From assembly GCA_963422465.1 (NCBI GenBank), contig OY730170.1:1550001-1614000 (forward strand): DNA of 64,000 bases, written 5' to 3'. The notes below the pieces were generated by a model, which ran no database searches, was not told the DNA's origin, and saw only the letters and a list, made by a program, of their open reading frames with translations. The DNA is from Lichina pygmaea (taxonomy: Eukaryota > Ascomycota > Lichinomycetes > Lichinales > Lichinaceae). The position numbers were made by a program, and so were the translations under genes. This document shows positions 2,597 through 23,209 of the stretch, piece after piece (position 1 is the stretch's first letter; each line of letters starts with the position of its first letter).

Positions 2597-3739
2597 TAAT
2601 CCTCTTGGCTAGAGTCTTCCAAGATCTCAGTAGCTTTTTTTCTGGGTATGTTGATTTGGAACTCTGAGTTCTGTGCAAGTGGGAAAGTGGGGAGCTGAGT
2701 GTTCAGTCTTGAGCTTGAGCATGCTCTTAGTACTTCCCCTTGTTTTCTTTTCTTAGCTTCTTGTCTGTCTTGTAGACTTGGCTCTTTTTCTTGTGTTGAG
2801 GGAGTCTGAGGTAGAGCTAGTCTGGGAGCTATTGTGTACCTCCCTGGTCTTGCTAGCCATACCTCTCTTGCTTTCTGGATTGCTTCCTGTTTTTTCTGGC
2901 AGGACTTTGACCAGGCTGGGTGGTTTCCCTTGCAGTTTGCACATTTTGGTGTTAGAGTTTCTGGAGAAGTCTGGCAGTCTCTTCTGGTATGCTTTCCTCC
3001 ACAGGCTGTGCACTGGGCTTGGGCTTGGCAAGTGCGTGCTTGGTGTCCAAACCTAGCACATTTGTAGCACTGGGTGACTGATGTTGCTAGCAGGGCTGGT
3101 TCTACTTCATGTAGAGTGTATCCTAGAACTACTCCTTTCTCAATTAGGAGGTTTGCTTGCTCTGGGGTGGCTAGATCCAGATGTAGAGATGTGACTGGCT
3201 TCTGGAGGAGTTTGGCTTTTCTGGACTAGTAGGTTCTTAGGATGTTGACCTTACTTTCCATCCCAGGGTTTTGGGAGAAGATTGTCTTTTTTGTTTCCTC
3301 CAGGTTTTCTGGCTTGAAGTCTTTTGTCTGCACCCTATGGACTAGCACTGGAAAGATTCTGGGTGATATCTTGGCCTCTGCTGTAAAGACAGCTGGGATC
3401 CAGTCCTTGTTTTCCTCTAGCTGGGTCTTGGCTTGAGGAGTTTCCAGAGAGATTATAATATCTCCTGAGGGTAGTTTTCTGGCTGCTCTTATTTCTTTTT
3501 GGCAGGAGAGTGGTGTTTTCTTCTTGAGAGCTTCCATGAGCTGGGCTGGTGTTCTGTTTGCTAACTGGCCAGTCTGAGTTCCAGGTCTGATAGTGATTTC
3601 ACTGTGGATTCTGGTTGGAACAGGGATTTCCTGTCCTACTGTTTTCTGGGCTGCCTGAGCATATGTTGGCTTGGTGTTTTGTTTTTGGACTTGTTTCTCA
3701 ATACTGTCCAGTCTCTCAAGTATCTTCTGGAGACTCTGG
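2597..3739 (-). pseudogene. LINE copy 1, ORF1 C-terminal part (gag-like, CCHC knuckles)
   Basis: C-terminal part of the LINE nucleic-acid-binding protein. Three zinc knuckles run in order between about 3073 and 2889: CYKCARFGHQARTC, then CTACGGKHTRRDC, then CANCKGNHPAWSKSC. This trio is usual in ORF1 of fungal and insect LINEs. The frame is broken by stops (for example near 3230) and is cut at 3739 by gypsy element A, whose TSD (TCTGG) is repeated at 16606-16610. The N-terminal part of the same ORF lies beyond the insertion at 16611-16870. Confidence 0.8.
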
Positions 3740-4166
3740 TGTTAAGGCCTAGGCCGGAACAGCCCAGGTAAGCGAGGGAGAAGTGTTAGTCATGCGGAAC
3801 AACATCCAACCGATCCGGTGGACAAGCAAGAGCTAAGCGAGGAGCTCGTCCGGTGGACGAGCAGGAGCTAAGTGAGGAGCTTGTCCGGTGGACAAGCAGG
3901 AGCTAAGCGAGGAGCTTGTCCGGTGGACGAGCAGGAGCTAAGCGAGGAGCTTGTCCGGTGGACAAGCAGGAGCTAAGTGAGGAGCTTGTCCACGCAAAAG
4001 GATGATACCCCTTGAGGAGACCCCCCCCTTGGGGCATCTGTATAAAGACCCCCAAAGAGTCCGGAGGGATTAGCTCTCCAGGCTGAACACATGCAAGCAA
4101 TACAAACCCATCGTACAGAGACAATAGCACAGGAGAGTTATCCCACCTGTCTATTCCTCTACCAAG
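3740..4166 (+). repeat. 5' LTR of element A, left part
   Basis: First 427 bases of the 501-bp 5' LTR of element A, cut at 4166 by element B. It holds the 35-bp minisatellite (3819-3993), a TATA box TATAAAG at 4041 and the word AGGCTGAA at 4080-4087, complementary to the sequence just inside the element (see findings). The remaining 74 bases are at 10637-10710. Confidence 0.93.
3819..3993 (+). repeat. 35-bp minisatellite in the LTR of element A (5 units)
   Basis: Five tandem 35-bp units in the U3 part of the LTR, each with inverted arms GGACAAG / CTTGTCC. Units differ mainly by C/T and G/A. The 3' LTR has five units too (16180-16354); element C LTRs have different numbers. Confidence 0.9.
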
Positions 4167-4710
4167 TGTTGCGGTCCGTACCGTACCGTCCTATCCGAGT
4201 ATAGGATTAGGGCGAGAGGTGGAAGGTGGGTTGGTTCTCGCAGGAGAGGAGTGTCAAGGAGTGCGAAGGGGTTTGGTGGAATGTGGTGGTGGTGACACCT
4301 GATCAACAGCTTCGTACAAAAGGATTGTATTGAAGTAGATCTAGTTGTCTGGATCACAACATGAGTTGAAGATGATCGTTCCATAGGGGAACTATCGCCT
4401 GGCTATATAGTGCCCAGTTTGTGAGCAGAGTGAGCTCTGCTCACTTTGCTCACTTTTCATGCACGCTGCGGTGAGCTGGGTGAGCTCTGCTCACTTTGCT
4501 CACTTTTCATGCACGCTGCGGCGAGCTGGGTGAGCTCTGCTCACTTTGCTCACTTGTTCGTGCATATGCATGCTGCGGCAAGCACCCCCTGGTTTGTCTC
4601 GCCGGTCACGTGACCGGTTCCCGTGTCACACTGTCTGGTACTTCTGTCCAGTATCCTGTCTGCTGCTTTCTGTGAGTATATAAAGACTGTGTTCCTCCTG
4701 GGTCGTAACA
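4167..4710 (-). repeat. 3' LTR of element B
   Basis: 544-bp LTR with TG...CA ends. It holds GTGAGC/GCTCAC inverted-repeat minisatellite units (about 4418-4560), the sense TATA-like CTATATAG (about 4402) and an opposite-strand TATA box at 4677-4685. The polypurine tract lies just inside (complement of 4711-4726, reading GGAGAGGAGGATAG in element sense). Confidence 0.93.
4677..4685 (+). promoter_or_regulatory. Antisense TATA box in the 3' LTR of element B
   Basis: TATATAAAG on the plus strand, 69 bp upstream of the antisense ATG at 4754. The same word is in the other LTR (10598-10606). The position suggests that the 3' LTR drives the antisense ORF. This is inference; no transcript evidence is available. 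Confidence 0.5.
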
Positions 4711-4753
4711 CTATCCTCCTCTCCATCTTTCATCATCTTGATGAAATCTGGTC

Positions 4754-5158
4754 ATGCCTCCAAAGTCACGTGCGACTATTAGCCGAACTCAGCTGGCTGC
4801 TCAAATCCGCGATCAGGGTTTTGTTTTGCGTACGCCCTGCAACTTTTGTGTTCTCCGTGGTCGTCCGTGCTTCCAGATGCCGGGAGAAGACGATAAGTTG
4901 AAATGTGCTGCGTGCACTCAGCGCAGAAGGTCTTGTGTCTCTGTGTCCTGGGAATCTTTGAACATGTCCCGGGACAACCTCTGTAAGGATGTTGCCGCTG
5001 ACAAGGCAACACGTGATGCACTCTTTGAACAACTTGCCACAGTGCAGGCTTGTCTGTCTCGGAAGCGAAAGGTGTTGGAGGGTGCCGAGGTCCGTGCGAG
5101 GCAGAAGCTTCAGTGCTTGGTGAAAGAGATGGAGTCGGATGGCGAGGATTTGACTTGA
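4754..5158 (+). CDS. Antisense ORF of element B: Zn2Cys6-like small protein
   Basis: 134-residue open frame between the 3' LTR and the end of pol, on the strand opposite to gag-pol. It ends 38 bp short of the pol stop at 5196, so the two face tail to tail. Its six cysteines C29, C32, C39, C51, C54 and C61 give C-x2-C-x6-C-x11-C-x2-C-x6-C, which fits the fungal Zn2Cys6 binuclear cluster rule (x2, x6, x5-12, x2, x6-8). Basic residues RRR sit between the last two cysteines. Residues 75-125 are charged and helix-prone. It lacks the usual CRxRKxKC wording, so DNA binding is uncertain. Element A has an antisense ORF of the same design in the same place. It may be an element-encoded regulator; it could also be a chance open frame, but the shared spacing argues against that. 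Confidence 0.6.
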   Translation: MPPKSRATISRTQLAAQIRDQGFVLRTPCNFCVLRGRPCFQMPGEDDKLKCAACTQRRRSCVSVSWESLNMSRDNLCKDVAADKATRDALFEQLATVQACLSRKRKVLEGAEVRARQKLQCLVKEMESDGEDLT

Positions 5159-5195
5159 TCAGTCATTGACGTGTCCTTCCTGCAGGCCGAGCTGT

Positions 5196-8100
5196 TCAGT
5201 CCTGCTCCTGCCAAAACTGTCGCAGAAGAAGCTGGCAGTTCGCGAGGTTCTTGAGTGGTTCCCAGGTATTTTCTGAGTCTGGGTATCCTTTCCACTTGAC
5301 GAGGTATTGCTGACCTTCCCTAGCCAGGATCTGTTCAACCTCAAACTCTTGTTCTTCTTCGGGTTGGTAATAGAATGTTTCCTGCAAGGGTGTGCTCTGG
5401 TCGGCTGGTTCAATCATTGATATATGAAAGTTTGGGTGTACCCGAGCGTCTTTCGGTAGTCGCAGTCTGATGTTGACTGGTCCGGTTTTTTCTTCGACTG
5501 AAAATGGTCTGACCTTGACATAGTCCAGTTTCTTTGTTCTTGGTTTCTTTGTTTTCCAATTTCTTGTGAGGAGGTAGACTTTATCCCCCTTCTTTAGCTG
5601 AGGTGCCATTTTCGATTTCTTGTCCATTTGACGTTGCATTCTTTCTGAGGTCTCTTGAAGGTAGTGCCTCATCATCGTGTGCGTTTGTCGTAGGAGCTTG
5701 TCGTGTTGGAGTGCTTTCTCTGTGTTTGGTGAAGCTCTGCTTGGCATCCCGATGTTCGCATGTTGTCCAAAATTGGCAAAAAATAGCGATTCCTTTGTTG
5801 AGTCTGATCTGTGCTGGTTGATTGCCAGCTGTGCCACCGGTAATAACTGTACCCAATTGCTGTGGGTCTTGTTGATGTAATGCTGTAAGTAAGTCTCCAG
5901 GACTTGGTTCGCTCGCTCTGTCTGGCCGTCAGTTCGTGGGTGATAGGCCGTAGACATTTTGGGTTTTGTTCCTATGGCTGCACTGATTGTCTTCCAGTAG
6001 TTGGATGTGAAGAGTTTGTCTCTGTCTGTAATGATCGTGATCGGAACTCCGTGGTCTCTGACCAATCTGTCCAGTAAAAGGTGTCCCAACTGTTCTGCTG
6101 TGTGGGTTTCCTTGAATGGTACTGCTATTAGATATTTTGTGAATCTGTCCACTATCACCATAATCAAGTCGTAGGTGATTCCTGTGACTGGGTCTTTGGA
6201 CTTGGGTAGCTTTGTGATGAAGTCCATTGACATGTCTTCCCACAGGCCTTTCGGTATCGTGTTCGGGTGTCCTTCTCCGTATAGCTTATGTCTTCCATGT
6301 TTGTTTTTCTGGCATAGTAGACACTTGCTGATGTAGTTTGTGACATGTTGTCAGAGGTTAATGACATTGTTCCCTGCCTGTTGGATAAGGTCTGTGGTCT
6401 TGGAGATTCCTGGGTGACTGTGTGCTGGGTTATCATGGTAGTTCCTTATTAGTTCTTCAGTGTCTTCTGCCGTGAGCTTGTTGATCTGTGGCTGGGGCAC
6501 CAGGTTTCCTTGCTGGTCCTGCTGTAAGATTGTTTCTTGGCGTTCATCATCTTCCATGTGGTCTTTTCGTCAGCTTAGTGCGTCTGCTCTCCTATTGTCT
6601 TGTCCAGGGATGTACAAGATCTTGAACTTGTGTTGCCCTAGGAGTTCAGCCCATCTGACTTGCCGTCTGTTCAGCTTCTTGGTTGTCGTGAACGTTGTCA
6701 GATTCTTGTGGTCTGTGAGAATGGTGAGTTCAGAACTGCTTTCCGCGTACACTCTCCAGTGTTCGAGTGTGTTGACGACTGCCAGTAGCTCTTTATCGTG
6801 GATATCATAGTTTCGTTCCGCTTGTGTCATCTTTCGTGAGTAGTAGGCAACTGGGTGCCACTTGCCGTCTGCCTGTTGGCATAGACATGCTCCCACTGCC
6901 TGATCTGAAGTGTCTGTCTCGATTCGTGTCGGTTGGCCTGTCTTGAAGTTGAGGAGAACTGGTTCCTTGGCGCAAGTGTCCTTGAGCTGTTGGAATGCTT
7001 TTTGTTGTCTCTCCGTCCACCGGTACTCCACGTCCTTCTTCGTGAGTTCTGTCAGTGGTGTTGCCATCTGTGAGTAGTTCTTGATGAACTGTCGGTTGAA
7101 GTTGGCAAATCCTAGGAAAGCTTGTACTTCCTTAACTGATGTCGGTGTTGGCTATTGCTGAATCACTTTGATTTTCTCAGAGTCAATCTTGATCCCTTCA
7201 ATCCCTATGATGTATCCAAGGAATTCAACTTCCGGTTTGTTGAACTCGCATTTCTTCGGGTTGAGCTTGAGCCCTGCCTCTTGTAGGCATCGTAGAACAT
7301 CCTTCACATGTTTGGTATGTTCCTGTTGCGTGTTCAAGTAGACAAGAATGTTGTCCAGGTAGGCGATAGCTGTTTGGTCCAGGTGTGCTCTGATGATGTT
7401 GTTGATCAATGCTTGACATGTTGCTGGTGCGTTTGTGAGTCTGAATGGCATAACCAGATACTCGTAGTGTCCGTATCAGGTTCTGAAGGCTGTCTTCCAT
7501 TCTTCTCCTTTTTTCATGCGTATCAGGTTGTATGCTCCTTTCAAGTCCAGCTTGGTAAAGATTGTAGCTTGGCTGATCCTGTCTTGCAATTTGTTCGCAT
7601 TTGGCAGTGGATATCAATTCTTGATAGTAATGTTGTTGAGTTTCCTGTAATCCACACAAAGTCGAAGACTTCCATCTTTCTTTGGTGCAAATAGTATCGG
7701 GTATCCTGCTGGCGATTGAGATTCTTGAATGAAACCCTTTTTCAGGTTTTCCTCCAGGTACTCGCGAAGTACTTGGAGCTCTTTCTCTGATAACTGGTAA
7801 ATTGGTCCAAATCCTGGCTCCGTCCCTGGTTGCAACTTGATCTCATGATCCCAAGGTTGGTGCTTAGGCAACACTGCTGTTGTTGTCTCTTCCTGAAAGA
7901 GGTTATCATACCCAGGTCAGTACTCTTCAGAGATCTCCAGAGGGTTAACAACTTCCTCTCTCTTCATCTCTGACTGTTTGGCCACCTGGTTCCGGGGTGT
8001 GCCTGTCAAGGTGGACCTCTTCTTTTGAGAGTCGTCCTTTCTGTCAGTGAGGTTCCACTGAGGACTCCTTCCCTTATCTGTCCACGCCTTCTGCGGCTGG

Positions 8101-8576
8101 TAACAGGTCCGAGCTGTGTTGTTAGTGCAGTTCCTAAACGTGAGTACTCCTGTCTTCCAGTTAACAACTGGGTTGTGCTTCTTTAGCCAAGGCATCCCCA
8201 AGTAGATATCCTGAGTGGCCAACTCGACAATATCAAGGTGGATCCTTTCAGCATGGTGTCTGGTAACTATTTCCATTGGCTGTGTCTCATGGCAGACTAG
8301 CTCTGTCTGTCCATTTGCCATCGCAAGCTGATAGGGCTGCTGCTTGCGTCTCCTTCCAGTGCCAAGGGTATCGTAAAGTTGTCTTGAAATGTAGTTCCCA
8401 CTGGCTCCAGAGTCAACAAGTGCGTATGTCCGTATCGGCGTGTTGGCGTATAGTGACACAGGCAATCGCAGGTGCTTTGTGTTGCTAGGGGTCATGTTGT
8501 TGAGCTCCCGATGTCGCCCCTTGACAAGGGAGTTCAGTCTTTTCCTGATTGAAGTGTCTTTCCACTGACTGGGCAA
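5196..8576 (-). pseudogene. Element B pol region: protease, RT, RNase H, integrase, chromodomain
   Basis: Pol part of fossil element B in several open stretches. The protease motif ALVDSGASGNYISRQ is near 8400. The RT covers 7150-7880 (VKNGF-type [18 protein letters not shown] and the YLDN active-site block). RNase H is at 6570-7067 (ETDTSDQAVGACLC, LTDHKNLTTF). The integrase core is at 5400-6240 ([26 protein letters not shown]). The chromodomain, [20 protein letters not shown] then TWEP, is near 5220-5320. A chromodomain at the integrase end defines chromoviruses and is thought to guide insertion to heterochromatin. Broken. Confidence 0.88.
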
Positions 8577-9118
8577 TGGGTCCAGCTATTCCCATCAGTC
8601 CTGAGGAATCCATTCATGAATTTGTCTTGCTGATGCTTGTCACATCCAGGCTTGAGGCAGTACTGCCAATTGTTGACGTAGCAGTTGTGGTTGTTGCCTT
8701 GCTGTAGGAACATGAGGTGTTTGTGCCAATCATGTGTGTGCCCGGGGAATGCGGTGTGTTGGCGTTTGTCCCAAAGATGGATCTCACACGCATCCTTCTC
8801 GCAATTGACCCAATGCTTGTGGCAGGTGGCGTGGTAGGGTGAATGTCCTCCGTACCTCCGTAGTTGTTTGTGGTAGGTGCAGTAGTGCCTCGTGCAAAAC
8901 CTCCACTGTAGTTCACCATGCTGTAGATTTTGTGGGTCCATGCTGTAAGCATAGCTTCCTTGTGGTATTTCTTCTTTGATAGACGTGGGTTTGTCTCGGT
9001 CCCCATCAGAGGTGGTTAAGGGCTCCTGTCCCTTGTCCTGACCTGTTAGTTCTGGTAGGTCCTTGCCTCCTGATGTTGCCAGTTGGTGGGCTGCTTCCAA
9101 TATCTGATTGTAGTCGTC

Positions 9119-10033
9119 CTATTGTTTGAGGGATAGCTGAGCCTCTCCTGGTGGGTCCTCTGGCTTGATGACATTCCAGTCTCCGTCGAGCGTATTAAGT
9201 TGCTGTCGGTGCACCTTGTTCTTTGAATGACAGTCTTTCGCCATGTGGCCTAGCTTGCCACAGGCATAGCACTTCAGTGCTTTCCCCTTTTTGTTGTTCC
9301 CTCCCCTCGTGAACCTTCCCTTGTGGTGGACTGCATCCAGTTCCATGGGTGCATAGCCATATGGATCATGTGGTGGTGCCTTGTTAGGCGGCTTGTAGTG
9401 GTTGCTCACATGCCATGCGGGGTGGCTGTATCCTCTGTCATGGCGTTTCTCCATCGCTCGCTCGAATAGTTTGTCATCAATGTTGATTGCTTGTGCAATC
9501 AGTTCGTCCAGTGTGTTGACTGCTCGTCCGTCAAAGGTGATTTCATCCTTCATGTTTTCCTTGAGTCCACGTCAGTACATGACCATCAGGGTGTTGTTGT
9601 CCCAGTCAGTCAGTACTGAGTATTGTTTGAACTGCGTGGTGTACTCTGCAGCTGAGTGTTGTTGTTTGATGTGCTGGATCATTCGTATAGCCACTTTGTC
9701 TTTGTTAGATGGTCCAAGGATCCTTTTGATCTTGTCCTTGAATTGTGTCCATTTTGTCATCTATTCTGTTGTGCTGTTGTGGTCTCTGTTTCCTGAGAGA
9801 TGTTTGTTGACGTAGGGCTTGATCCATTGATAGGCATTGCCTCTCATGTAAGTGGTTGCAAAGAGGGGCCACTTTTCCTTAGGCAGCCTTGTCTCTGGTT
9901 GGAATTGAAAGTAGACTTGGAGTTGCATGAGCCAGTCGTCGACCTTGTTTCTTTCACCGTAGAACAGGTCTGGCTTGGCGACGCTAATCTTTCCATCTGG
10001 GAAGTTGGGGTTGGTTGCTCCTGAGGTACTCAT
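9119..10033 (-). pseudogene. Element B gag region
   Basis: Gag of fossil element B. It starts at ATG 10033 (MSTSGATNPNF), only 18 nt inside the 5' LTR, which leaves almost no leader. The retrotransposon gag block (DDWLMQLQVYFQFQPE, then TQFKQYSVLTDW) and the zinc knuckle CYACGKLGHMAKDC (about 9240-9280) are clear. Broken into open pieces. Confidence 0.85.
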
Positions 10034-10051
10034 CCTTGAGGGTCTTCAAAG

Positions 10052-10631
10052 TGTTGCGGTCTGTACTGTACTGTCCTATCCGAGTATAGGATTAGGGCAA
10101 GAGGTGGAAGGCAGGTTGGTTCTCGCAGGAGAGGAGTGTCAAGGAGCGCGAAGGGGTTTGGTGGAACGTGGTGGTGGTGACACCTGATCAACAGCTTCGT
10201 ACAAAAGGATTGTATTGAAGTAGATCTAGTTGTCTGGATCACAACATGAGTTGAAGACGATTGTTCCATAGGGGAACTATCGCCTGGCTATATAGTGCCC
10301 AGTTTGTGAGCAGAGTGAGCTCTGCTCACTTTGCTCACTCGGTGAGATAAGTGAGCTCTGCTCACTTTGCTCACTTTTCATGCATGCTGCGGTGAGCTGG
10401 GTGAGCTCTGCTCACTTTGCTCACTTTTCATGCACGCTGCGGCGAGCTGGGTGAGCTCTGCTCACTTTGCTCACTTGTTCGTGCATATGCATGCTGCGGC
10501 GAGCACCCCCTGGTTTGTCTCACCGGTCACGTGACCGGTTCCCGTGTCACGCTGTCTGGTACTTCTGTCCAGTATCCTGTCTGCTGCTTTCTGTGAGTAT
10601 ATAAAGACCGTGTTCCTCCTGGGTCGTAACA
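10052..10631 (-). repeat. 5' LTR of element B
   Basis: 580-bp partner of the LTR at 4167-4710, with 36 extra bases in the GTGAGC minisatellite. TATA-like CTATATAG is at 10288-10295. TTGAAGAC (10251-10258) lies 37 nt downstream of it in element sense and can pair with the sequence just inside the LTR. Confidence 0.93.
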
Positions 10632-10636
10632 CCAAG

Positions 10637-10710
10637 TCCCTGTCTAGAACCCACCCCACAAGGCAACAGACTGTACCAGTTTCTGTGTGAACCCGGCCCA
10701 GCCTTTAACA
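10637..10710 (+). repeat. 5' LTR of element A, right part
   Basis: Last 74 bases of the 5' LTR of A, resuming after element B and its TSD, and ending CCTTTAACA. The next bases GTTTCAGCCT form the presumed primer-binding site. Confidence 0.92.
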
Positions 10711-10748
10711 GTTTCAGCCTCTAACGTACAGGACACTGACTTGATACG

Positions 10749-11732
10749 ATGGTGGATCTACAAAGCCCTACCCCTTCTCAGGCGGCCCAAGCCCAGGCTG
10801 TTCAGGCAGCTCAGGCCCAGACTGTCCAGGCAGCACCTATTGTTAATCTACCCCTGAAGCCCTTGAAGGTAGGTGCCCCAAAGAGGTACAATAGATCCAG
10901 AGGAGGACTGGAGTTGTTCTTCTCACAACTGGAGCTCTACTATGGGTTCAACACAGCCCAGTTCCCAACAGACCAGGAGAAGATGCTATTTGCAGCCTCC
11001 TACCTGGAAGGACCAGCCTTCGCTTGGTTCAACATCTACTTAAGAGATTACCTAGACAATCAGGCAGACCCCAAGGAGCAAGAAGACAATACCTGACAGG
11101 TCATGGGAAGCTTGAAAATCTTTAAGACAGCCATGAGAAAGATGTTTGGGATCCTCAACAAGGAAAGGGATGCAGAACAAAAGCTCCAAGCACTGCGGCA
11201 AACTGGATCAGCATCAGAATTCACGGCGAAGTTCCAACAACTAGCAGTGAGGACCCAGTGGGGGGACAGTGCACTAACAGCACTATTCTACCAAGACCTC
11301 AAGGAACAAGTCAAGGACAACATCGTGCGAGGAGACTGACCAACCGAGCTCTACGAAATAATCAAGACTGCGGCTCGCATCAATGACCGACAGTTCGAGA
11401 GAGAGCTTGAGAAGTGAGGCAAGCAGACAAAACTATGGGTGAAGAAAAAGCCAACACCTGCCAAGGATAACTACAGCTTGGTACCTATAGAAGTTGACAC
11501 AGCAGAACCACAAAAGAAGAAGACATGGAAGTGCTACAACTGTCAGAAAGTGGGCCACCTTGCGGTAAACTGCAGGAGCAAGAAGAAGAACAAGGAGGGC
11601 AAAGGGAAGCAGTTGAACACCACAAGTGCCTGGAAAGGCAGGGAGATAGAGGAGCCCCAGAGGGCCCCTCAAGGCACACTGCCCCACAATCACTCTGAGG
11701 CGGCACTCCTCAGAGAGGAGGACAACCTCTGA
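10749..11732 (+). pseudogene. Element A gag region
   Basis: Gag of fossil element A, starting at ATG 10749. The N-terminus is an alanine-glutamine repeat (QAAQAQAVQAAQAQ). A Ty3/Gypsy gag block follows (FFSQLELYYGFN, YLEGPAFAWFNIYL), then the zinc knuckle CYNCQKVGHLAVNC near 11535 and a lysine-rich tail. Broken. Confidence 0.85.
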
Positions 11733-12046
11733 CAACACGCCGAAAAACTCAAGAACATGCTCCAAGAAACCTTGGACTGTCTTGACAAGGTCTGAAGGAG
11801 GGTTGATGAGATCCACTGAGAGGAAGACTTGATCTCCGAGTTTGACACAACCAGCTACATGGAGGAACAGGTTAACGACAAGGAAACCCAGCCACCACCA
11901 GTCCCTGACAAACCTGTCCTTCAATGACAGCACACAACCCTATCGGAAATAGGGGAGATGCAAGTGTCACGATAGGTTGATGATACCCTCAGCATCATAC
12001 AGGTCAGAGATATTGCTGATGATTACAACCAAGATCTGAGGGAACA

Positions 12047-15000
12047 ATGCACCACCACATGATGCAAACAACATGTGGTAGAGTGTCAGGCCCAGGGTCT
12101 AGGCAGCTCAAAAAACTAGCAGCACTCTTCAAAACTAGGGTCGGAAGAGCAGGCAAGACAACACCCCGGGAGGAAGGAGTCAAGCTGAGTCTTGACGCAA
12201 CAGCCTGCAGCCCACACTTTCACATCAAGATCAGAGTCAATGGGTGGTTGGCTAAGGCCATGATTGACTCTGGTGCGACTGGCAACTTCATGTCAGAAAG
12301 CTTTGCCAGAAGAAACAAGGTTCCAGTCCAAGGCAAGAAAGACCTCTACCAGCTGACAGTAGTGGACGGAACACCACTCTCCAAAGACAAGGGATGAGTG
12401 ATGAAGGAGACCAAGAGCCTGAGACTGAGTGTCCATGGCACGATGATCGGAACAGAAGAATTCGACTTGGTCCGGATACCACACAAAGTTATATTGGGAC
12501 TTCCGTGGTTGGAAAAACAAAACCCAAGGATTGACTGGAAAAGAAGGCAACTAGTCTTTCCAGATGAGACACTGGTCATGTCAGAACCAGGGGTGACAAT
12601 TAAAGAAATCTCACTGACACAGTGGAAGAAATACCACCAGCGCAGGGAGGCCTGTGTGGCCTGGATGAAACCCTGAACACAACAACTTTGCACCACGCAA
12701 GACGCCGTGGGCAAGACTCAGGCACTGCAGTTGCCAAGTGAGTATAAAGAATACCAGGAGATGTTCAAAGAAACAGCGATTGCAATGCTACCAGAACATC
12801 AGGAGTGGGACCACAAGATTCCACTGGAAGATGGAAAAAAACCCACACACAGCCCTATCTACGCTCTGTCAGCAAAAGAGCTTGAGGCCCTGAGAAACTA
12901 CCTGGACAAGAACCTAGTGAAAGGGTTCATAAGACTTTCAACATCACCGGCTGGATACCCGATATTGTTTGTACCAAAGAAAGACAGCAAACTTTGACTG
13001 TGTGTTGATTATCAGCAGCTAAATACGATTACAGTGAAAAACTGTTACCCGCTGCTATTGATATCAGAAATCCAAGACCAGATCCAAGAAGCCAAATAGT
13101 TTACCAAGTTCAATATTCAAGGCACTTTCAACCTGGTTAGGATGAAAGACAGCGAAGAATGGAAGACAGCCTTTCGTACAAGGTACAGGCACTACGAGTA
13201 TACTGTGATGCCATTCAGCTTTACGAATATACTGGCAACATTCCAATCACTTATTAACACTGTCCTCTGACAATACCTGGACATATTTGTCACCGCTTAT
13301 ATTGACGACATCTTGGTATACACCAATGGAATCTTGGAGAAGCACAAACAGCATGTCAAGAAGATCCTACATGCACTCCAGAGAGCAGGGATGAGGTTAC
13401 GCCTAGATAAAAGTGTTTTCCACACAAAGGAAGTGGAATATTTGGGGTTGATCCTGACAACAGAAGGAATCCGAATGGACAACACAAAGACGGCAGCAGT
13501 ACAAGACTGGCCAACACCCAAAAACCTCAAAGAAGTACAATCCTTCCTAGAGTTTGCAAACTTCTACTGACGATTCATCAAGGACTACTCAAGAACAGCA
13601 GCAGTCTTGACAGAGTTAACCAGAAAGAACAAATCTTTCAGGTGGGAGGAGAGCCAACAAGCAGCCTTCCAGGAGTTGAAGGATAAATTCATCTCCGCAC
13701 CTATTTTGGCATCATTCAATCCTGAGAAGAGGATCATTCTGGAGACTGATGCCTCGGACCAAGCATTGGGATTCTGCTTGTGTCAACCAGACGCCGACGA
13801 CTGCTTACACCCTGTCGCATACTGATCAAGAAAGTTCTCTGGCCCAGAACTGAGGTACAATGTTCACAACAAAAAGTTGTTAGCAATCGTCAACACATTC
13901 CAAGAATGGAGGCCTTACTTGGAGGGGGCAAAATACATGATAGACATGTACTCAGACCACAAAAACTTAGCTTACTTCACAACAACGAAGAAGCTAAACT
14001 GACAACAAGTTTGATGGGCAGAGTTGTTAGCATCATACAACTTCCAAATCCTCTACCAGAAGGGCACTGAAAATGCTTGAGCAGACACCCTCAGCAGGCG
14101 ACCAGACCTGATGGATGAGAAAACAACAGAGGAACACCCAATCCTAGCGACAAAAGGATGAACCCTGGTCTATACCCAACCCCAACTGGCAACAACAGAA
14201 ACAAAGGGTCCACTCCTTACCCTTGGCCACAAGACAGCAAACAAAAAGGAAACTGTGCCAGGAAGAGCACAAGAGGAGGTGATCCAGAGGCACCATGACA
14301 AGCCTTTGCATGGACACCCCGGGCAAGACAAAACCTTGGAGAAAATCCAAAGGAACTACCGCTTCAACAGAATGAAGCGCAAGGTGACAGAGTTCATCCA
14401 CAACTGCGAACAGTGCGCGAAGAACAAACCATCAAGGCATAAGCCCTACGGGCAGGCACAGCAGATGGACCTACCCAAGGCACCATGGAAAACTATCACA
14501 ATGGATTTTGTGGTCAAGTTGCCAAAGTCAACAGACCCAGCAACAAAGGTGGTATACGATAGTATTCTGGTGGTTGTTGACAAACTCACCAAATACGCCC
14601 ACCTGGTCCTGTGGAAAGAGTCAGGAACTGTGAACAAACTTGCGAGTGTTCTACTCAGAGAGCTGGTAAGCCACTGAGGGCTACCAAAGACAATCATCTC
14701 AGATCAAGACAAACTCTTCACCTCAAAATTCTGGAACACGTGGACAAGGCAACTTGGCATTGATACAAGGATGTCAACAGCCTACCACCCACAAACTGAT
14801 AGACAAACTGAGTGGACAAACCAGACAATGGAGCAGTATCTACAACACTACATCAACCACCAGCAGGACAACTGGGTGGAACTGCTACCAATAGCCCAGT
14901 TTGCGTACAACGACCAGCAACACAGTGTGACAGGGACAACACCATTCTTTGCAAACTACAGAAGAAACCCCTGATGGCAGGCAACAGCAGGAGGCAACGT

Positions 15001-15553
15001 TGTTGATGTTAGCAAGCTCGCTGCTATGCACAAGATGATGAAAACAACAATCAACCGTGCCCAGAACACCACCACCCACCGGTTACACAACAAAAGGTTG
15101 AAGGGACCAACCCTGGAAAGGGGGGATAAGGTCTACCTATCAACAAAAAACCTGCACTTGAAGCGACCGAGCAAAAAGCTGGACCATGTACAAATCAGAC
15201 TATTCGAAATTGAGAAGTGCACTGGGAAGGTCAACTATCAACTGAGACTGCCACGAAAAGCAAGAATACACTGAGTATTCCACGTCTCGCTGCTTGAACC
15301 AGCACCCAGCGACGCAGAGGTCAAAACAGAATGGAACTTCGAGGACGACAAAGAAGAGTACGATGTTGAAAGGATCCTGGATAGTCGAAGAAACAGATGG
15401 AAAACTGAGTACCTGGTGAAGTGGTTAGGATTTGACGAAGAGGAGAATTTGTGGGAACCAACCGAGAACTTCAGCTCTGCGATGAACCAGAAACTGGTGG
15501 ATTACCACCGAGCAAATCCGCAGCGACCAGGTCCGACAGAGACAACAGCTTGA
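12047..15553 (+). pseudogene. Element A pol region: protease to chromodomain
   Basis: Pol part of fossil element A. The protease block IDSGATGNFMSESFARR is near 12260. The RT has [17 protein letters not shown] near 12930 and the active site YIDDILVYTNG near 13300. RNase H is near 13620-13950 ([20 protein letters not shown]). The integrase has zinc-binding HxxxH at 14280-14330, the core MDFVVKLPKS at 14500 and YHPQTDRQTE at 14780. The chromodomain (YDVERILDS, EYLVKWLGF) is at about 15360-15450 and the end at 15551-15553. The last 83 bases overlap the antisense ORF. Broken. Confidence 0.88.
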
Positions 15554-16043
15554 GAGAAGCCAAAGCCTCTGAAGAGAAGACATCCTCAAAGGATGGCGGA
15601 GCAGCAGCTTGACAGGCCTCCTGTTCACGGATAATGTGGAGGGCCTCTTGTTCCTGAGCATCGAGGGACTCTTGATCCTTGATGGCTGACAGCTCACAAC
15701 AGATGGCATCAGCCTTCTTCTGTGAGAGATGACCCAGCTGCCAGCGGAGGCGGATCTGCTGGGGAAGCAGCTTTGACAGTTGGTCATCAGTCTCCTGCAG
15801 CTGAGCCTTGAGCTGCTCATGCTCAAGTTCCATCTTCTTCCATTCTGATTCCGAGAGATGAAGGTCACAGTGACAACCCTTCTTGATGCACTGACAACAA
15901 AAAGACAATGCGGAACTCACAACACACTTGGCGTGGTCACGACAACAAGCACCGCATGTGATTTTTGATTCCTTGCCCATTTTGCCAACACGACAAGAGA
16001 GAAAACCACGATGACAAGTTTGAGTTGTCTGGCTTTGGTTCAT
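15471..16043 (-). CDS. Antisense ORF of element A: Zn2Cys6-like protein with helical tail
   Basis: 190-residue uninterrupted frame on the strand opposite to gag-pol, starting 62 bp inside the 3' LTR. Cysteines C30, C33, C40, C49, C52 and C59 give C-x2-C-x6-C-x8-C-x2-C-x6-C, the canonical Zn2Cys6 spacing. Residues 63-150 are rich in E, Q, L and K (SESEWKKMELEHEQLKAQL) and look like a coiled coil. The tail is acidic-hydrophobic (PSFEDVFSSEALASLKLL), as in activation domains. It stays open although gag-pol of this copy is heavily broken. The counterpart in element C is decayed. The architecture matches the antisense ORF of the other family (4754-5158), though the sequences share little else. Function unknown; a regulator encoded by the element is a reasonable guess. 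Confidence 0.62.
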   Translation of the reverse strand: MNQSQTTQTCHRGFLSCRVGKMGKESKITCGACCRDHAKCVVSSALSFCCQCIKKGCHCDLHLSESEWKKMELEHEQLKAQLQETDDQLSKLLPQQIRLRWQLGHLSQKKADAICCELSAIKDQESLDAQEQEALHIIREQEACQAAAPPSFEDVFSSEALASLKLLSLSDLVAADLLGGNPPVSGSSQS

Positions 16044-16104
16044 GGCAAAAGAGAAGCAGGAACAAAAAGGATCTGGGGACAGAACCCTTGGAGGGAGGGG
16101 ATAG

Positions 16105-16605
16105 TGTTAAGGCCTAGGCTGGAACAGCCCAGGTAAGTGAGGGAGAAGTGTTAGTCATGCGGAACAACATCCGACCGATCCGGTGGACAAGCAAGAGCTA
16201 AGCGAGGAGCTTGTCCGGTGGACAAGCAGGAGCTAAGTGAGGAGCTTGTCCGGTGGACAAGCAGGAGCTAAGCGAGGAGCTCGTCTGGTGGACAAGCAGG
16301 AGCTAAGCGAGGAGCTTGTCCGGTGGACAAGCAGGAGCTAAGCGAGGAGCTTGTCCACGCAAAAGGATGATACCCCTTGAGGAGACCCCCCCCTTGGGGC
16401 ATCTGTATAAAGACCCCCAAAGAGCCCGGAGGGATTAGCTCTCCAGGCTGAACACATGCAAGCAATACAAACCCATCGTACGGAGACAATAGCACAGGAG
16501 AGTTACCCCACCTGTCTATTCCTCTACCAAGTCCCTGTCTAGAACCCACCCCACAAAGCAACAGACTGTACCGGTTTCTGTGTGAACCCGGCCTGGCCTT
16601 TAACA
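16105..16605 (+). repeat. 3' LTR of element A
   Basis: 501-bp LTR, TGTTAAGG to CTTTAACA, with five 35-bp minisatellite units at 16180-16354 and a TATAAAG box near 16405. It is preceded by the polypurine tract GGAGGGAGGGGATAG (16090-16104) and followed by TSD TCTGG. Confidence 0.94.
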
Positions 16606-16610
16606 TCTGG

Positions 16611-16899: not shown

Positions 16900-17428
16900 T
16901 GTTAAAGGCCAGGCCGGGTTCACACAGAAACCGGTACAGTCTGTTGCTTCGCAGGGTGGATTCTAGACAGGGACTCGGTAGAGGAATAGACAGGTGGGGT
17001 AACTCTCCTGTGCTATTGTCTCAGTACGATGTGTGCATTGGTGTTCAGTCTGGAGAGCTAATCCCTCCGGGCTCTTTGGGGGGTCTTTATACAGATGCCC
17101 CAAGGGGGGGGGTCTCCTCAAGGAGTATCATCCTTTTGCGTGGACAAGCTCCTCACTTAGGGACTGCTTGTCCACCAGACAAGCTCCTCGCTTAGCTCCT
17201 GCTTGTCCACCGGACAAGCTCCTCGCTTAGCTTCTGCTTGTCCACCAGACAAGCTCCTCGCTTAGCTCCTGCTTGTCCACCGGACAAGCTCCTCGCTTAG
17301 CTCCTGCTCGTCCACCAGACAAGCTCCTTGCTTAGCTCCTGCTTGTCCACCAGATCAGTCGGATATTGTTCCACATGACTAACACTCCTCCCTCACTTAC
17401 CTGGGCTGTTCTGGCCTAGGCCTTAACA
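16900..17428 (-). repeat. 3' LTR of element C
   Basis: 529-bp LTR with six to seven imperfect 35-bp units (about 17145-17355). TATA-like TATACAG replaces the TATAAAG of element A near 17090 (opposite strand). Confidence 0.92.
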
Positions 17429-17486
17429 CTATCCCCTCTCTCCAAGAGTTCTGTCCTCAGATCCTTTTCGTTCCTGCTCCTCTTTT

Positions 17487-18062
17487 GTCATGAACTAAAG
17501 CCAGACAACTTGAACTTGTCATCACAGTTTTCTTTCTTGTTGTATTGGCAAAATAGGCAAGAAATCAAAAATCGCATGCAGTGCTTGTTGTTGCGACCAC
17601 ACCAAGTGTGTTGTGAGCTCCACATCATCTTTTTGTTGTCAGTATGTTGAGAAGGGTTGTCACTGTGACCTTCATCTCTCGGAATCAGAATGGAAGAAGA
17701 TGGAACTTGAGTGCGAGCAGCTCAAGACTTAGTTGTGGGAGACTGATGACCAATTGTCAAAGTTGCTTCCCTGGCAGATCCACCTCTGCCGGCAGCTGGG
17801 TTATCTCTCACAGAAGGAGGCTGATGCTATCTGTTGTGAGCTGTCCACCATCAAGGATCAGGAATCCCTCAATGCTCAGGAACAGGAGACTCTCCATGTT
17901 ATCCGCGAACAGGAGGCCAGTCAGGCTGCTGCTCCACCATCCTTTGAGGATGTCTTCTCTTCAGAGGCTTTGGCTTCTCTCAGGCTGTTGTCTCTGTCAG
18001 ACCTGGTCACTGCGGGTTTGCTTGGTGGTAATCCACCAGCTTCTGGTTTATCGCAGAGCTGA
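17487..18062 (+). pseudogene. Element C antisense ORF remnant
   Basis: Counterpart of the antisense ORF of element A, in the same place and orientation relative to its element. The helical and acidic C-terminal half is open from about 17733 to 18062 (SYLSQKEADAICCEL-like, PSFEDVFSSEALASL). The N-terminal half with the cysteines is decayed. It confirms that the ORF belongs to the family and not to one insertion. Confidence 0.7.
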
Positions 18063-21000
18063 AGTTCTCGGTTGGTTCCCACAAATTCCTCTTCGTCAAA
18101 TCCTAACCACTTCACCAGGTACTCAGTTTTCTGTCCATTTCTTTGACTATCCAGAATCCTTTCAACATCGTACTCTTCTTCGTCATCCTCAAAGTTCCAT
18201 TCTGTCTTGATCTCTGCGTCACTGGGTGCTGGTTCAAGCAGCAAGACATGGAATACTCAGTGTATCCTTGCTTTTCGTGGTAGTCTCAGTTGATAGTTGA
18301 CTTTCCCAGTGCGCTTCTTGATTTTGAATAGTCTGATTCGTACGTAGTCCAGCTTTTTGCTTGGTCACTTTGAGCGCAGGTTTTTTGTTGATAGGTAGAC
18401 CTTATCCTCCTTTTCCAGGGTTGGTCCCTTCAACCTTTTGTTGTGTAATCAGCGGGTGGTGGTGTTCTGGGCACAGTTGATTGTTGTTTTCATCATCTCG
18501 TGCATAGCAGCGAGTTTGCTAACATCAACAACATTGCCTCCTGCTGTTGCCTGCCATCAGAGGTTTCTTCCGTAGTTTGCAAAGAACAGTGTTGTCTCTG
18601 TCACACTGTGTTGCTGGTTGTTGTACGCAAACTGGGCTATTGGTAGCAGTTCCACCCAGTTATCCTGCTGGTGGTTGACGTAGTGTCGTAGATACTACTC
18701 CATTGTCTGGTTTGTCTGCTCAGTTTGTCTGTCAGTTTGTGGGTGGTAGACTGTTGACATCCTTGTATCAATGCCAAGTTGCCTTGTCCACATGTTCCAG
18801 AATTTCGAGGTGAAGAGTTTGTCTTGATCTGAGATGATTGTCTTTGGTAGCCCTCGGTGGCTTACCAGCTCTTTGAGTAGGATGCTTGCGAGTTCATTCG
18901 CAGTTCCTGACTCTTTCCACAGGACCAGGTGGGTGTATTTGGTGAGCTTGTCAACAACCACCAAAATACTATCGTATACCACCTTTGTTGCTGGGTCTGT
19001 TGACTTTGGCAACTTGACCACAAAATCTATCGTGATAGTTTCCCATAGTGCTTTGGGTAGGTCTATTTGCTGTGCCTGCCCATAGGGCTTATGTCTTGAT
19101 GGCTTGTTCTTCGCACACTGTTCACAGTTGCGAATGAACTCTGTCACCTTGCACTTCATTCTGTTGAAGCAGTAGTTCCTTTGGATTTTCTCCAAGGTTT
19201 TATCTCACCCAGGGTGTCTGTGCAAAGGCCTGTTATGGTGCCTCCGGATCACCTCCTCTTATGCTCTTTCTGGCACAATTTCCTTTTTGTTTGCCACCTT
19301 GTGGCCAAGGGTAAGGAGTGGACCCTTTGTTTCAGTTGTTGCCAGTTGGGGTTGGGCATAGACCAGGGTTTGTCCTTTTGTTGCTAGGATTGGGTGTTCC
19401 TCTGTTGTTTTCTTGTCCATCAGGTCTGGTCGCCTGCTGAGTGCGTCCACTCAAGTATTTTCAGTGCCCTTCCAGTAGAGGATTTGGAAGTTGTATGATG
19501 CCAACAACTCTGCCTATCGAACTTGTTGTCAGTTTAGCTTCTTTGTTGTTGTGAAGTAAGCTAAGTTCTTGTGGTCTGAGTACATGTCTACTGTGTATTT
19601 TGCCCCCTCCAAGTAAGGCCTCTATTCTTGGAATGTGTTGATGATTGCTAGCAACTCTTTGTTGTGAACATCATACCTCAGTTCTGGGCCAGAGAACTTT
19701 CTTGATCAGTACGCAACAGGGTGTAAGCAGTTGTCAGCGTCTGGTTGACACAAGCAGGATCCCAATGCTTGGTCTGAAGCATCAATTTCCAGAATGATCC
19801 TCTTCTCGGGATCAAATGATGCCAAAATAGATACAGAGATGAATTTATCCTTCAACTCCTGGAAGGCTGCTTGTTGGCTCTCCCCCCACCTGAAAGATTT
19901 GTTCTTTCTGGTTAACTCTGTCAAGGCTGCTGCTGTTCTTGAGTAGTCCTTGATGAATTGTCAGTAGAAGTTTGCAAATCCTAGGAAGGATTGTACTTCT
20001 TTGAGGTTTTTGGGTGTTGGCCAGTCTTGTACTGCTGCCGTCTTTGTGTTGTCCATTTGGATTCCTTCTGTTGTCAGGATCAACCCTAAATATTCCACTT
20101 CTTTCGTGTGGAAAACACTTTTATCAAGGTGTAACCTCATGCCTGCTTTCCGGAGCGCATGTAGGATTGTTTTGACATGCTTTTTATACTCCTCCAAGGT
20201 TCCATTGGTGTATACCAAGACATCGTCAATATAAGCGGTGACAAATATATCCAGGTATTGTCGGAGGACAGCGTTAATAAGTGATTGGAATGTCGCCAGT
20301 GTATTCTTAAGGCTGAATAGCATCACAGTATACTTGTAGTGCCTGTACCTTGTATGAAAGGCTGTCTTCCATTCTTCACTGTCTTTCATCCTAACCAGGT
20401 TGAAAGCACCTTGAATGTCGAACTTGGTAAACTATTTGGCTTCTTGGATCTGGTCTTGGATTTCTGATATCAGTGGCAGTGGGTAGCAGTTCTTCACTGT
20501 AATCGTATTTAGCCACCGGTAATCAACACACAGTTGAAGTTTGCCATCTTTCTTTGGCACAAACAATATCGGGTATCCAGCTGGTGATGTTGAAAGTCTT
20601 ATGAACCCTTTCGCTAGGTTCTTGTCCAGGTAGTCTCTCAGGGCCTCAAGCTCTTTTGCTGACAGAGCGTAGATAGGGCTGTGTGTGGGTTTTTTTCTGT
20701 CTTCCAGTGGAATCTTGTGGTCCCACTCCTGATGTTCCGGTAGCATCATGATCGCTGTTTCTTCGAACATCTCCTGGTATTCTTTATACTCACTTGGCAA
20801 CTGTGGTGCCTGAGTCTTGCCCACGGCGTCTTGCGTGGTGCAAAGTTGTTGTGTTCGGGGTTTCATCCAGGCCACACAGGCCTGCCTGTGCTGGTGGTAT
20901 TTCTTCCAGCGTGTCAGTGAGATTTCTTTAATTGTCACCCCTGGTTCTGACGTGACCAGTGTTCTGTCTGGAAAGACTAGTTGCCTTCTTCTCCAGTCAA

Positions 21001-21508
21001 TCCTTGGGTTTTGTTTTTCCAACCACAGAAGTCTCAATATAACTTTGTGTAGTATCCGGACCAAGTTGAATTCCTCTGTTCCGATCATCGTACCATGGAC
21101 ACTCAGTCTCAGGCTCTTGGTCTCCTTTGTCACTTGTCCCTTGTCTTTGGAGAGTGGTGTTCCGTCCACCACTGTCAACTGGTAGGGGTCTCTCTTGCCT
21201 TGGACTGGAACCTTGTTTCTTCTGGCAAAGCTTTCTGACATGAAGTTGCCAGTCACACCAGAGTTGATTATGGCCTTAGCCAACCACCCATTGACTCTGA
21301 TCTTGATGCGAAAGTGCGGACTGCAGGCTGTTGTGTCAAGGCTTGGCTTGACTCCTTCCTCCTGGGGTGTTGTCTTGCCTGCTCTTCCGACCCCAGTTTT
21401 GAAGAGCACTGCTAGTTTTTTGAGCCACCTAGGCCCTGGGCCTGACACTCTACCGCGTGTTGTTTGCATCGTGTGGTGAGGCATCATTCCCACAGGTCTT
21501 GGTTGCAA
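17921..21508 (-). pseudogene. Element C pol region
   Basis: Pol part of fossil element C, nearly the same sequence as that of A. The longest open stretch, 20432-21508, spans the end of gag-pol linker, protease (SGVTGNFMSESFARR) and RT start ([16 protein letters not shown]). RT active site AYIDDVLVYTNG is near 20240. RNase H is at 19706-19924, integrase (ITIDFVVKLPKS, YHPQTDRQTE) at 18695-19195 and the chromodomain at 18090-18200. Broken. Confidence 0.87.
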
Positions 21509-21798
21509 TCATCAGCAATGTCTCTGACCTGTGTGATGCTGAGGGTATTGTCAACCTATCGTGACACTTGCGTCTCCCCTATTTCTGATAGGGTTGTGTC
21601 CTGTTGTCAAAGGACAGGTTTGTCGGGGACTGGTGGTGGCTGGACTTCCTTGTCGTCAACCTGTTCCTCCATATAGCTGTTTGTGTCAAACTCGGAGATC
21701 AGGTCATCCTCCCAGTGGATTCTGTTGACCTTCCTTCAGACCTTGTCAAGGCAGTCCAAGATTTCTTGGAGTATGTTCTCGAGTTTTTCAGTGTGTTG

Positions 21799-22782
21799 TC
21801 AGAGGTTGTCCTCCTCTCTGAGGAGTGCTGCCTCAGGGTGATTGTAGGGCAGTGTGCCTTGGGGGGCCCTCTGGGGCTCCTCCATCTCCCTGCCTTTCCA
21901 GGCACTCGTGATGTTCAACTGCTTCCCTTTGCCCTTCTTGTTCTTCTTCTTGCTCCTGCAGTTCACTGCAAGGTGGCCCACTTTCTGACAGTTGTAACAC
22001 TTCTGTGTCTCCTTCTTTTGTGGTTCCACCACATCGATTTCCATAGGTACCAAGCTGTAGTTATCTTTGGCAGGTGTTGGCTTTTTCTTCACCCATGGTT
22101 TCGTCTGCTTGCCTCACTTCTCAAGCTCTCTCTCAAACTGTCAGTTGTCAATGCGAGCTGCAGTCTTGATCATTTCGTAGAGCTTGGTTGGTCAGTCTCC
22201 TCGCACGATGTTATCCTTGACTTATTCCTTGAGGTCTTGGTAGAATAGTGCTGTTAGTGCACTGTCCCCCCACTGAGTCCTCACTGCTAGTTGTTGGAAC
22301 TTCGCTGCAAATTCTGATGCTGATCCAGTTTGCCGCAGTGCTTGGAGCTTTCATTCCGCATCTTTTTCCTTGTCAAGGATCCCAAACATCTTTCTCATAG
22401 CTGTCTTAAAGGTTTTCAGGCTTCCTATGACCTGTCGGGTATTGTCTTCTTGCTCCTTGGGGTCTGCCTGATTGTCTAGGTAATCCCTTAAGTAGATGTT
22501 GAACCAAGCGAAGGCTGGTCCTTCCAGGTAGGAGGCTGCAAACAGCACCTTCTCCTGGTCTGTCGGGAACTGGGCTGTGTTGAACCTATAGTAGAGCTCC
22601 AGTTGTGAGAAGAACAACTCCAGTCCTCCCCTGGATCTATCGTACCTCTTCGGGGCACCTACCTTCAAGGGCTTCGGGGGTAGGTTAACAATAGGTGCTG
22701 CCTGGACAGCCTGGGCCTGAGCCACCTGAGCAGCCTGGGCTTGAGCTGCCTGAGAAGGGGTAGGGCTTTGTGGATCCACCAT
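21799..22782 (-). pseudogene. Element C gag region
   Basis: Gag of fossil element C, from ATG 22782 (MVDPQSPTPSQAAQAQAA) through the gag block to the zinc knuckle CYNCQKVGHLAVNC near 21990. Broken. Confidence 0.85.
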
Positions 22783-22820
22783 CGTATCAAGTCAGTGTCC
22801 TATATGTTAGAGGCTGAAAC

Positions 22821-23209
22821 TGTTAAAGGCCAGGCTGGGTTCACACAGAAACCGGTACAGTCTGTTGCTTCGCAGGGTGGATTCTAGACAGGGACTTGGT
22901 AGAGGAATAGACAGGTGGGGTAACTCTCCTGTGCTATTGTCTCAGTACGATGTGTGCATTGGTGTTCAGCCTGGAGAGCTAATCCCTCCGGGCTCTTTGG
23001 GGGGTCTTTATACAGATGCCCCAAGGGGGGGGGTCTCCTCGAGGGGTATCATCCTTTTGCGTGGACGAGCTCCTCGCTTAGGGACTGCTCGTCCACCGGA
23101 CGAGCTCCTCGCTTAGGGACTGCTCGTCCACCGGATCGGTCGGATGTTGTTCCGCATGACTAACACTCCTCCCTCGCTTACCTGGGCTGTTCCGGCCTAG
23201 GCCTTAACA
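22821..23209 (-). repeat. 5' LTR of element C (short)
   Basis: 389-bp LTR with only about two minisatellite units, four fewer than its partner. The ends and the rest match the 3' LTR. TSD CAGTT follows at 23210-23214. Confidence 0.93.

Follow-up and report, generated by a model that had tools for sequence, protein, structure and literature searches.

In a 64-kb stretch of the Lichina pygmaea genome (contig OY730170.1, positions 1,550,001 to 1,614,000; hereafter, the window), two Ty3/Gypsy retrotransposons, denoted A and B, carry next to their 3' long terminal repeat (LTR) an additional open reading frame (ORF), located on the strand opposite to gag-pol. Sequence comparison of their copies across the genome indicates that this antisense ORF and the U3 region of the adjoining LTR behave as one exchangeable unit, a finding which is new here. 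The antisense frame is under purifying selection. In the subfamilies named below A1, A2, B1 and B2, its product is predicted to be a Zn2Cys6-like DNA-binding regulator, which probably acts on paired half-sites within the U3 of its own element, gene and U3 being exchanged as a single cassette.

The antisense genes and the exchange of their cassettes

Element A spans positions 3740..16605 of the window on the plus strand, between target site duplications (TSDs) TCTGG at 3735-3739 and 16606-16610, and is interrupted by element B, found on the minus strand at 4167..10631 with TSDs CCAAG at 4162-4166 and 10632-10636, which is nested within the 5' LTR of A. Both contain a chromodomain, recognised by eye, at the end of pol. 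The 3' LTRs are located at 16105..16605 (plus strand) in A and at 4167..4710 (minus strand) in B. The antisense ORF of A (15471..16043, minus strand, 190 aa) starts 61 nt inward of this LTR and features a Zn2Cys6-like cluster with spacing C-x2-C-x6-C-x8-C-x2-C-x6-C, a predicted long coiled coil and an acidic/hydrophobic tail; its last 83 nt overlap tail-to-tail the 3' end of pol, which terminates, by eye, at 15553 on the plus strand. The ORF of B (4754..5254, plus strand) starts 43 nt inward of the LTR, with spacing C-x2-C-x6-C-x11-C-x2-C-x6-C, and is antisense to a pol ORF at 5196-6233 (minus strand), the end of which it overlaps tail-to-tail over 59 nt (5196-5254). It is open at 4754-5158 (134 aa), being cut short by a TGA at 5156-5158, codon 135, and the same frame continues to 5254. 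A stop at this codon is present in 22 of 30 copies of the subfamily, while six of the 30 have no internal stop; the full-length frame ends, as in A, with an acidic/hydrophobic tail. Position, orientation and cysteine spacings of the two ORFs are thus as given in a preliminary description of the window, made from the sequence alone.

The genome (32.5 Mb in 8 contigs) was searched with the two window proteins, P0001 and P0002, and each of the two ORFs has at least 150 copies; these are the numbers of scored matches and hence lower bounds, initial searches having returned 274 and 502 matches. Further searches, with the public relatives P0088 and P0016, detected additional groups, for a total of five subfamilies: A1 and B1, to which the ORFs of A and B belong, A2, A3 and B2. 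A2 includes 61 matches at 85% identity or more, 53 of them without a stop; A3 is about 64-70% identical to P0088 and B2 about 55-58% identical to P0016. In the one locus read for each, the A2 and B2 ORFs are likewise antisense and beyond pol, and the A3 ORF likewise starts just inside an LTR. The sets analysed comprise 30 A1 and 30 B1 copies, window copies included, which are the best protein matches among the 150 scored for each, together with 10 A2, 8 B2 and 4 further B2 (B2b) copies, picked for the absence of internal stops.

Identity along the 3' end was read from a few pairs, and the comparison of B1 with B2 by pieces was made with one B2 copy (L083). Relative to the latter, all 30 B1 copies show 92-95% identity in pol and 94-99% in R-U5 pieces, as against 71-74% in the cassette pieces. 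Followed along the 3' end, B1 and B2 are 95-97% identical in R-U5 and 58-71% identical across U3 and the initial 400 nt of the antisense frame; the right edge is gradual, identity rising to 81% at +400, to 86-87% at +500 to +699 and to 90-97% in pol from +700. The left edge is at most about 20-40 nt away from the sense TATA box, located in the window at 4403-4410 of the 3' LTR, and the B1-type cassette extends there over 4411..5254 (plus strand). As synonymous divergence (pS) in the B ORF is about 0.6 beside a pol at about 93% identity, recombination is needed to account for the pattern.

Among A elements, the A1 copy L003 is 92-98% identical to A2 in pol from +700 and 52-81% in the cassette, whereas its cassette is 91-98% identical to that of the window copy (L001) where aligned, array lengths being different, with pol at 64-87%. 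All 30 A1 copies contain the A1 cassette (87-94% identical to L001, 67-70% to A2), accompanied in 11 by an A2-type pol (95-97% identical to the A2 copy L081, 77-78% to L001) and in the remaining 19 by a pol of the window type. The A1-type cassette occupies 15471..16404 (minus strand, edges approximate), and the sense TATA box (GTATAAAG) is at 16405-16412 of the 3' LTR. The left edge is less sharp in L003, with 65-85% identity over a stretch that begins 20 nt before the TATA box and ends 60 nt past it, and lower values thereafter. The U3 of copy L007 resembles that of A2 for about 60 nt beyond the sense TATA and departs from it thereafter; this is probably an independent exchange point, and more than one exchange has probably occurred.

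Selection on the antisense frame and features of its product

The ratio of nonsynonymous to synonymous differences (pN/pS) was computed on codon alignments and compared with simulations placing the same changes at random, matched for base and CpG context; up to 60 pairs, not independent of each other, were used per comparison, and A3 was represented by two copies. Between subfamilies, pN/pS ranges over 0.27-0.49 against a neutral expectation of 0.66-0.94: observed and neutral values are 0.30 and 0.78 for B1-B2, 0.41 and 0.84 for A1-A2, 0.48 and 0.78 for A1-A3, 0.49 and 0.66 for A2-A3. In 1000 simulations run for each of six named pairs (A1-A2 and B1-B2), the observed value was never attained, and in one example pair the differences at the three codon positions are 35, 29 and 78. 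The same test applied to A pol, the only pol used, gave 0.21-0.24 against 0.66-0.69. Within subfamilies the corresponding values are 0.69/0.72 (A2), 0.50/0.63 (B2), 0.49/0.62 (B1) and 0.41/0.61 (A1), closer to neutrality, as would be expected if copies mostly decay after insertion. The evaluation of nonsynonymous change suggested in the preliminary description had therefore two outcomes, values within subfamilies being 0.67-0.97 of the neutral ones, while those between subfamilies are well below (0.38-0.74).

Constraint imposed from the other strand was considered as an explanation. Over the greater part of the ORF, pol cannot impose codon constraint, the overlap being limited to 59 nt in B and 83 nt in A, and constraint from any sense frame was rejected, as the sense frames across the antisense ORF are closed in all 80 copies. 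Frame r1, on the opposite strand and having its third positions in common, shows pN/pS values of 0.48, 0.40 and 0.51, and of 0.43 in A2-A3, and so looks constrained as well, but it is among the frames closed in every one of the 80 copies. The persistence of open frames in copies with a badly broken gag-pol, previously offered as evidence, turned out to be uninformative: stops per 100 codons are fewer than in pol for A1 (0.26 against 0.92) and more numerous for B1 (0.80 against 0.51), in counts where the pol stretch extends past its own stop and may include terminal stops. Openness is no sign of selection here, because the antisense ORFs are simply short. That the frames are open by chance, or that the antisense RNA is non-coding, is highly improbable; values nearer to neutrality within subfamilies, such as those of A2, would agree with it, but they are expected after insertion, and comparisons between subfamilies show conservation of the antisense frame at the protein level, with the sense frames closed.

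All six cysteines are complete in 28 of 30 A1, 10 of 10 A2, 30 of 30 B1 and 8 of 8 B2 copies, so that their spacing is conserved in 76 of 78, a count biased upward by the choice of best protein matches or stop-free copies and by the exclusion of decayed A3 copies, some of which lost a cluster cysteine. Both spacings agree with the Zn2Cys6 (PF00172) motif, C-x2-C-x6-C-x(5-12)-C-x2-C-x(6-8)-C. The two proteins had been described as otherwise dissimilar and their families as unrelated, but separate origins of the ORFs are not supported: their profiles, compared by hhalign, align with all six cysteines in register (probability 75%, E 2.5e-5, one comparison), whereas smaller alignments, compared before, had given 7.5% and a different register. 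Integrases from sister copies of A and B share 47% identity over 120 aa.

For A, sub-threshold Pfam matches, Protein Data Bank (PDB) matches and fold matches point to Zn2Cys6 proteins. Zn_clus was detected in 7 of 15 A proteins, A2-type and some A1, with E values no higher than 1 and a lowest one of 7.6e-4, the match covering the cluster itself. The A profile has LEU3 as its top PDB match, and LEU3, HAP1 and LAC9 make up 6 of the 13 matches listed, none significant (best E 0.62); in Foldseek, GAL4 (E 1.3) and PPR1 (E 3.8) lead the three matches of the A model. The indication is weaker for B, where GAL4 chains are 3 of the 17 matches listed for the B-lineage profile (E 0.18-2.2). AlphaFold models, with a mean predicted local distance difference test (pLDDT) score of 74 for A (sister copy) and 69 for B, resolve the cluster poorly and contain a confident long helix (residues 65-147 in A, 66-128 in B) followed by short tail helices. 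The tail of the B1 copy L033 counts 9 D/E, 2 K/R and 8 large hydrophobic residues out of 35. Metal cluster, coiled coil for dimerization and a hydrophobic, mostly acidic tail together form the predicted layout of a minimal activator.

A profile search listed 98 public proteins, the distant ones being about 19-35% identical; several, P0162 and P0025 among them, still show a cluster whose spacer is x8, while others lack some of the cysteines. Single window proteins gave no useful match in Pfam and PDB sequence searches, nor did P0001 against phage records by tblastn, and IMG/VR scans with both alignments produced 10 and 75 pattern matches, none of which is a relative.

Variation between copies (loci L001-L060) consists almost wholly of C-T/G-A transitions, which turn arginine codons into cysteine codons and generate false cysteines in zinc-finger-like ORFs. 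Over half of the two-state columns changed at CpG (93 of 177 in A1, 73 of 114 in B1), and this mode of decay suggests a methylation-based defence or one resembling repeat-induced point mutation (RIP). The additional cysteines of P0001 at residues 34, 50 and 57 correspond to arginine in many sister copies; they were rejected as cluster members and attributed to decay at CpG.

U3 arrays, the proposed mechanism and its alternatives

The U3 regions read are made of tandem arrays, variable in length, of inverted and direct half-sites. In the window, the U3 of A contains tandem repeats of about 35 bp with inverted GGACRAG half-sites, roughly at 16180-16360, and that of B an array of GTGAGC/GCTCAC half-sites, roughly at 4418-4554. 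The array unit is CTTGTCC-ACC-GGACAAG in A1 and GTGAGC-TCT-GCTCAC in B1; it is TCRAGAC-N10-GTCTYGA in B2, while in A2 two GGACRAG are followed by a spacer and two inverted copies, a frame also found in A3 with GGCAGAG. In samples of 30 A1, 10 A2, 5 A3, 30 B1 and 6 B2 regions, GGACRAG occurs at least twice in all A1 and A2 copies, GGCAGAG at least twice in 4 of 5 A3, GTGAGC 11-17 times in every B1 and TCRAGAC 4-13 times in every B2; counted as subfamily words in the same samples, A words in B, B words in A, and the B1 word in B2 or the reverse, all score zero. The most common loop between the second and third cysteine (C2-C3) is nearly identical in A1 and A2 (RRDHAK and RRDRAK), which have a common half-site, and different in B1 and B2 (VLRGRP and VLNHKP), where half-sites differ. 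The number of the repeats, about 35 bp long in A1 and 50 bp in B1, seems to vary between copies; U3 lengths are 175-295 in A1 and 292-378 in B1 for the copies listed.

A candidate antisense core promoter, TATATAAA, is located at 4677..4684 (plus strand), 77 nt upstream of the ATG of the B ORF. This TATA box is kept at -77 in all 30 B1 copies and, as TATAAAT, at -79 in both B2 copies, in spite of a similarity of no more than about 60% in the U3 around it.

These features may be combined in a mechanism in which the antisense mRNA would start within the 3' LTR, from the TATA box at -77/-79 in B, none having been found in A; a dimer of the protein would bind the inverted half-sites and increase the transcription driven by the LTR of its own element, not that driven by other LTRs. 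A cassette edge next to the sense TATA, not far from where R begins, fits a proposed exchange during reverse transcription of two co-packaged RNAs, in which the first strand transfer would pass from one RNA to the other and a single template switch would follow close to the pol end; the strand-transfer step is modelled on the retrovirus cycle. A further proposal, advanced tentatively and with the balance tipping slightly against it, is that of a retrotransposon 'immunity region', in which the antisense regulator, of Zn2Cys6 type, and its cognate palindromic U3 operators would form a self-specificity cassette, able to jump from one gag-pol backbone to another through strand transfer at R. If true, elements could in this way re-programme which LTRs are switched on, half-site and recognition loop co-evolving.

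A number of observations weigh against a regulator matched to its own U3. Adjoining sequences can be exchanged jointly without any functional linkage. The half-site words are a choice made by eye once the U3s had been read, and tandem copying inflates their counts. Tests independent of these words, based on 60 Markov random sequences per copy for 41 copies, including every third A1 and B1 copy, gave mixed results: the longest inverted repeat reaches p<=0.05 in 30 of 41 (7 of 10 A1, 8 of 10 A2, 2 of 5 A3, 9 of 10 B1, 4 of 6 B2) and the best inverted 6-mer in 34 of 41, A3 being the weakest with 2 of 5 in both scans. One A3 copy of the five (L089) has the A1/A2 word, and the altered A3 half-site goes along with a loop that differs little, as far as the decayed copies show. 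An antisense TATA was found in none of 32 A1/A2 copies. The Pfam scan gave no Zn_clus match for the window's own A and B proteins; since no score shown reached the curated threshold of 21 bits (best shown 16.6 for A, 14.2 for a B relative), the products are called Zn2Cys6-like, and membership of the family is not claimed. By Z-score, the A model is closer to an ATP-synthase stalk, a coiled coil, than to PPR1 (4.7 against 3.0), the top match of the B-lineage profile is an antitoxin rather than GAL4, and the B model has no Zn2Cys6 neighbour in the fold search, pLDDT in its cluster block being 47-59. The A2 tail is hydrophobic and weakly acidic, with 3 D/E and 1 K/R out of 37 residues. Lastly, r1 falls below the antisense frame in A2-A3 (0.43 against 0.49), and other frames are lower than the antisense one within A2, B1 and B2.

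In a somewhat unlikely alternative, U3 and ORF would be co-exchanged as mere neighbours, and the arrays would have no relation to the protein, serving as RNA hairpins or as enhancers for host factors. Strand transfer at R and one template switch would move any 3'-end sequence, the sense RNA could form folds at its 3' end through the inverted repeats, and tandem U3 repeats are common LTR enhancers; the alternative is less easily reconciled with direct and inverted half-sites which, by eye, change in concert from A2 to A3 while the intervening sequence is constant, and with the joint change of C2-C3 loop and half-site in the two available comparisons. The protein may otherwise be an anti-silencing factor, binding its own U3 arrays in order to clear them of repressive chromatin or of DNA methylation, a role played in VANDAL elements by VANC. 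Tandem motifs differing between related elements, as described for VANC targets in PMC5735166, and the decay of copies by transitions, over half at CpG, both agree with such a role, which we nevertheless judge unlikely: the tail fits an activator, and no sequence relation to VANC was seen, no search aimed at VANC having been made.

A repressor of sense transcription, similar to HBZ or controlling copy number through its own LTR, is still less probable. Its position by the 3' LTR recalls HBZ of human T-cell leukaemia virus type 1 (HTLV-1), and in B the arrays lie between the sense and antisense TATA boxes; acidic and hydrophobic tail residues weakly suggest activation instead, and no bZIP family was present among the Pfam scan results for the antisense proteins and their relatives. 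An element-encoded regulator is retained as the best reading of the antisense ORFs and is partly supported. Of the original suggestion of a transcription regulator, made by analogy with HTLV-1, the element-encoded part is sustained by selection, by the Zn2Cys6-leaning matches of A and by co-exchange with U3, while DNA binding, the analogy with HBZ and any effect on transcription are matters of inference.

Related systems and other features of the window

Both Botrytis and plants are known to have LTR retrotransposons with antisense genes at the 3' end; in plants, the aORF-3R genes lie between pol and the 3' LTR. HBZ, transcribed from the 3' LTR of HTLV-1, is a bZIP regulator, unlike the zinc-cluster-like proteins described here, and we know of no cassette exchange for it. 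In lambdoid phages, the immunity region, i.e. repressor gene and operators, is swapped as a unit among genomes that otherwise resemble each other; its protein is a phage repressor and the biology is different. GAL4, PPR1, LEU3 and HAP1 are similar in cysteine spacing, in the combination of a short cluster with a coiled coil and in the use of paired half-sites, but they are host genes and the similarity is below threshold. VANDALs are DNA transposons; to our knowledge VANC/VANDAL is the closest functional analogue, and brtn the closest anatomical one. The antisense gene brtn is reportedly described in Zhao et al. 2011 (Virology 417:248).

According to PMC8365987, PMC4227169 and PMC7264820, brtn is an additional antisense gene of Boty-like Gypsy elements in Botrytis cinerea. 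As in the present case, it belongs to a fungal chromodomain Gypsy element (PMC8365987, PMC4227169), so that an antisense gene in fungal Gypsy elements is, in itself, prior art; in the parts available, these accounts do not mention cassette exchange or cognate arrays. PMC7264820 also reports plant aORF-3R genes (Grande gene23, Retand), with an antisense ORF in the 3' part transcribed antisense to gag-pol, and places the antisense promoter of HTLV inside the 3' LTR; Grande differs from the elements described here in being a plant element and in having the promoter in the region upstream of gene23. For VANC, PMC5735166 describes anti-silencing established by experiment; an element-encoded protein and differing tandem repeats are common features, the targets being putative in our case. 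Within the accessible portions of the open-licence PMC literature, no report of a Zn2Cys6-like antisense protein or of antisense gene-U3 exchange was recognised, and those of PMC5118889 and PMC10648671 contain nothing on an antisense gene or U3 exchange.

Sequence data alone thus tie an antisense gene to the promoter which travels with it and provide candidate binding sites for each subfamily. The purpose of the gene becomes directly testable, by confronting two proteins with two arrays; if the reading of a regulator acting on its own U3 is true, retrotransposons would exchange regulator-operator modules as phages do.

The left third of the window holds three LTR elements, each with both LTRs. 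The third, element C (16900..23209, minus strand, TSD CAGTT), is an inverted member of the family of A, to which it is 91-92% alike over 0.9 and 4.8 kb. A relic of the antisense ORF is indeed present in the same place (17490..18059, plus strand, 81% identical to the ORF of A, with three stops), as previously indicated, but the idea of three independent families was rejected. Locus L086 contains two cluster starts, and an A3 element has apparently been inserted there into the antisense ORF of a different A-type element. Elsewhere in the window, pieces of LINE-like (long interspersed nuclear element) endonuclease/reverse transcriptase ORFs were recognised by eye on the minus strand at 1682-2596 and 24339-27098, as were, at 51199-53323, two minus-strand ORFs resembling parts of a fused terpene cyclase/prenyl diphosphate synthase. 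An ORF at 62962-63609 includes a stretch of unknown residues.

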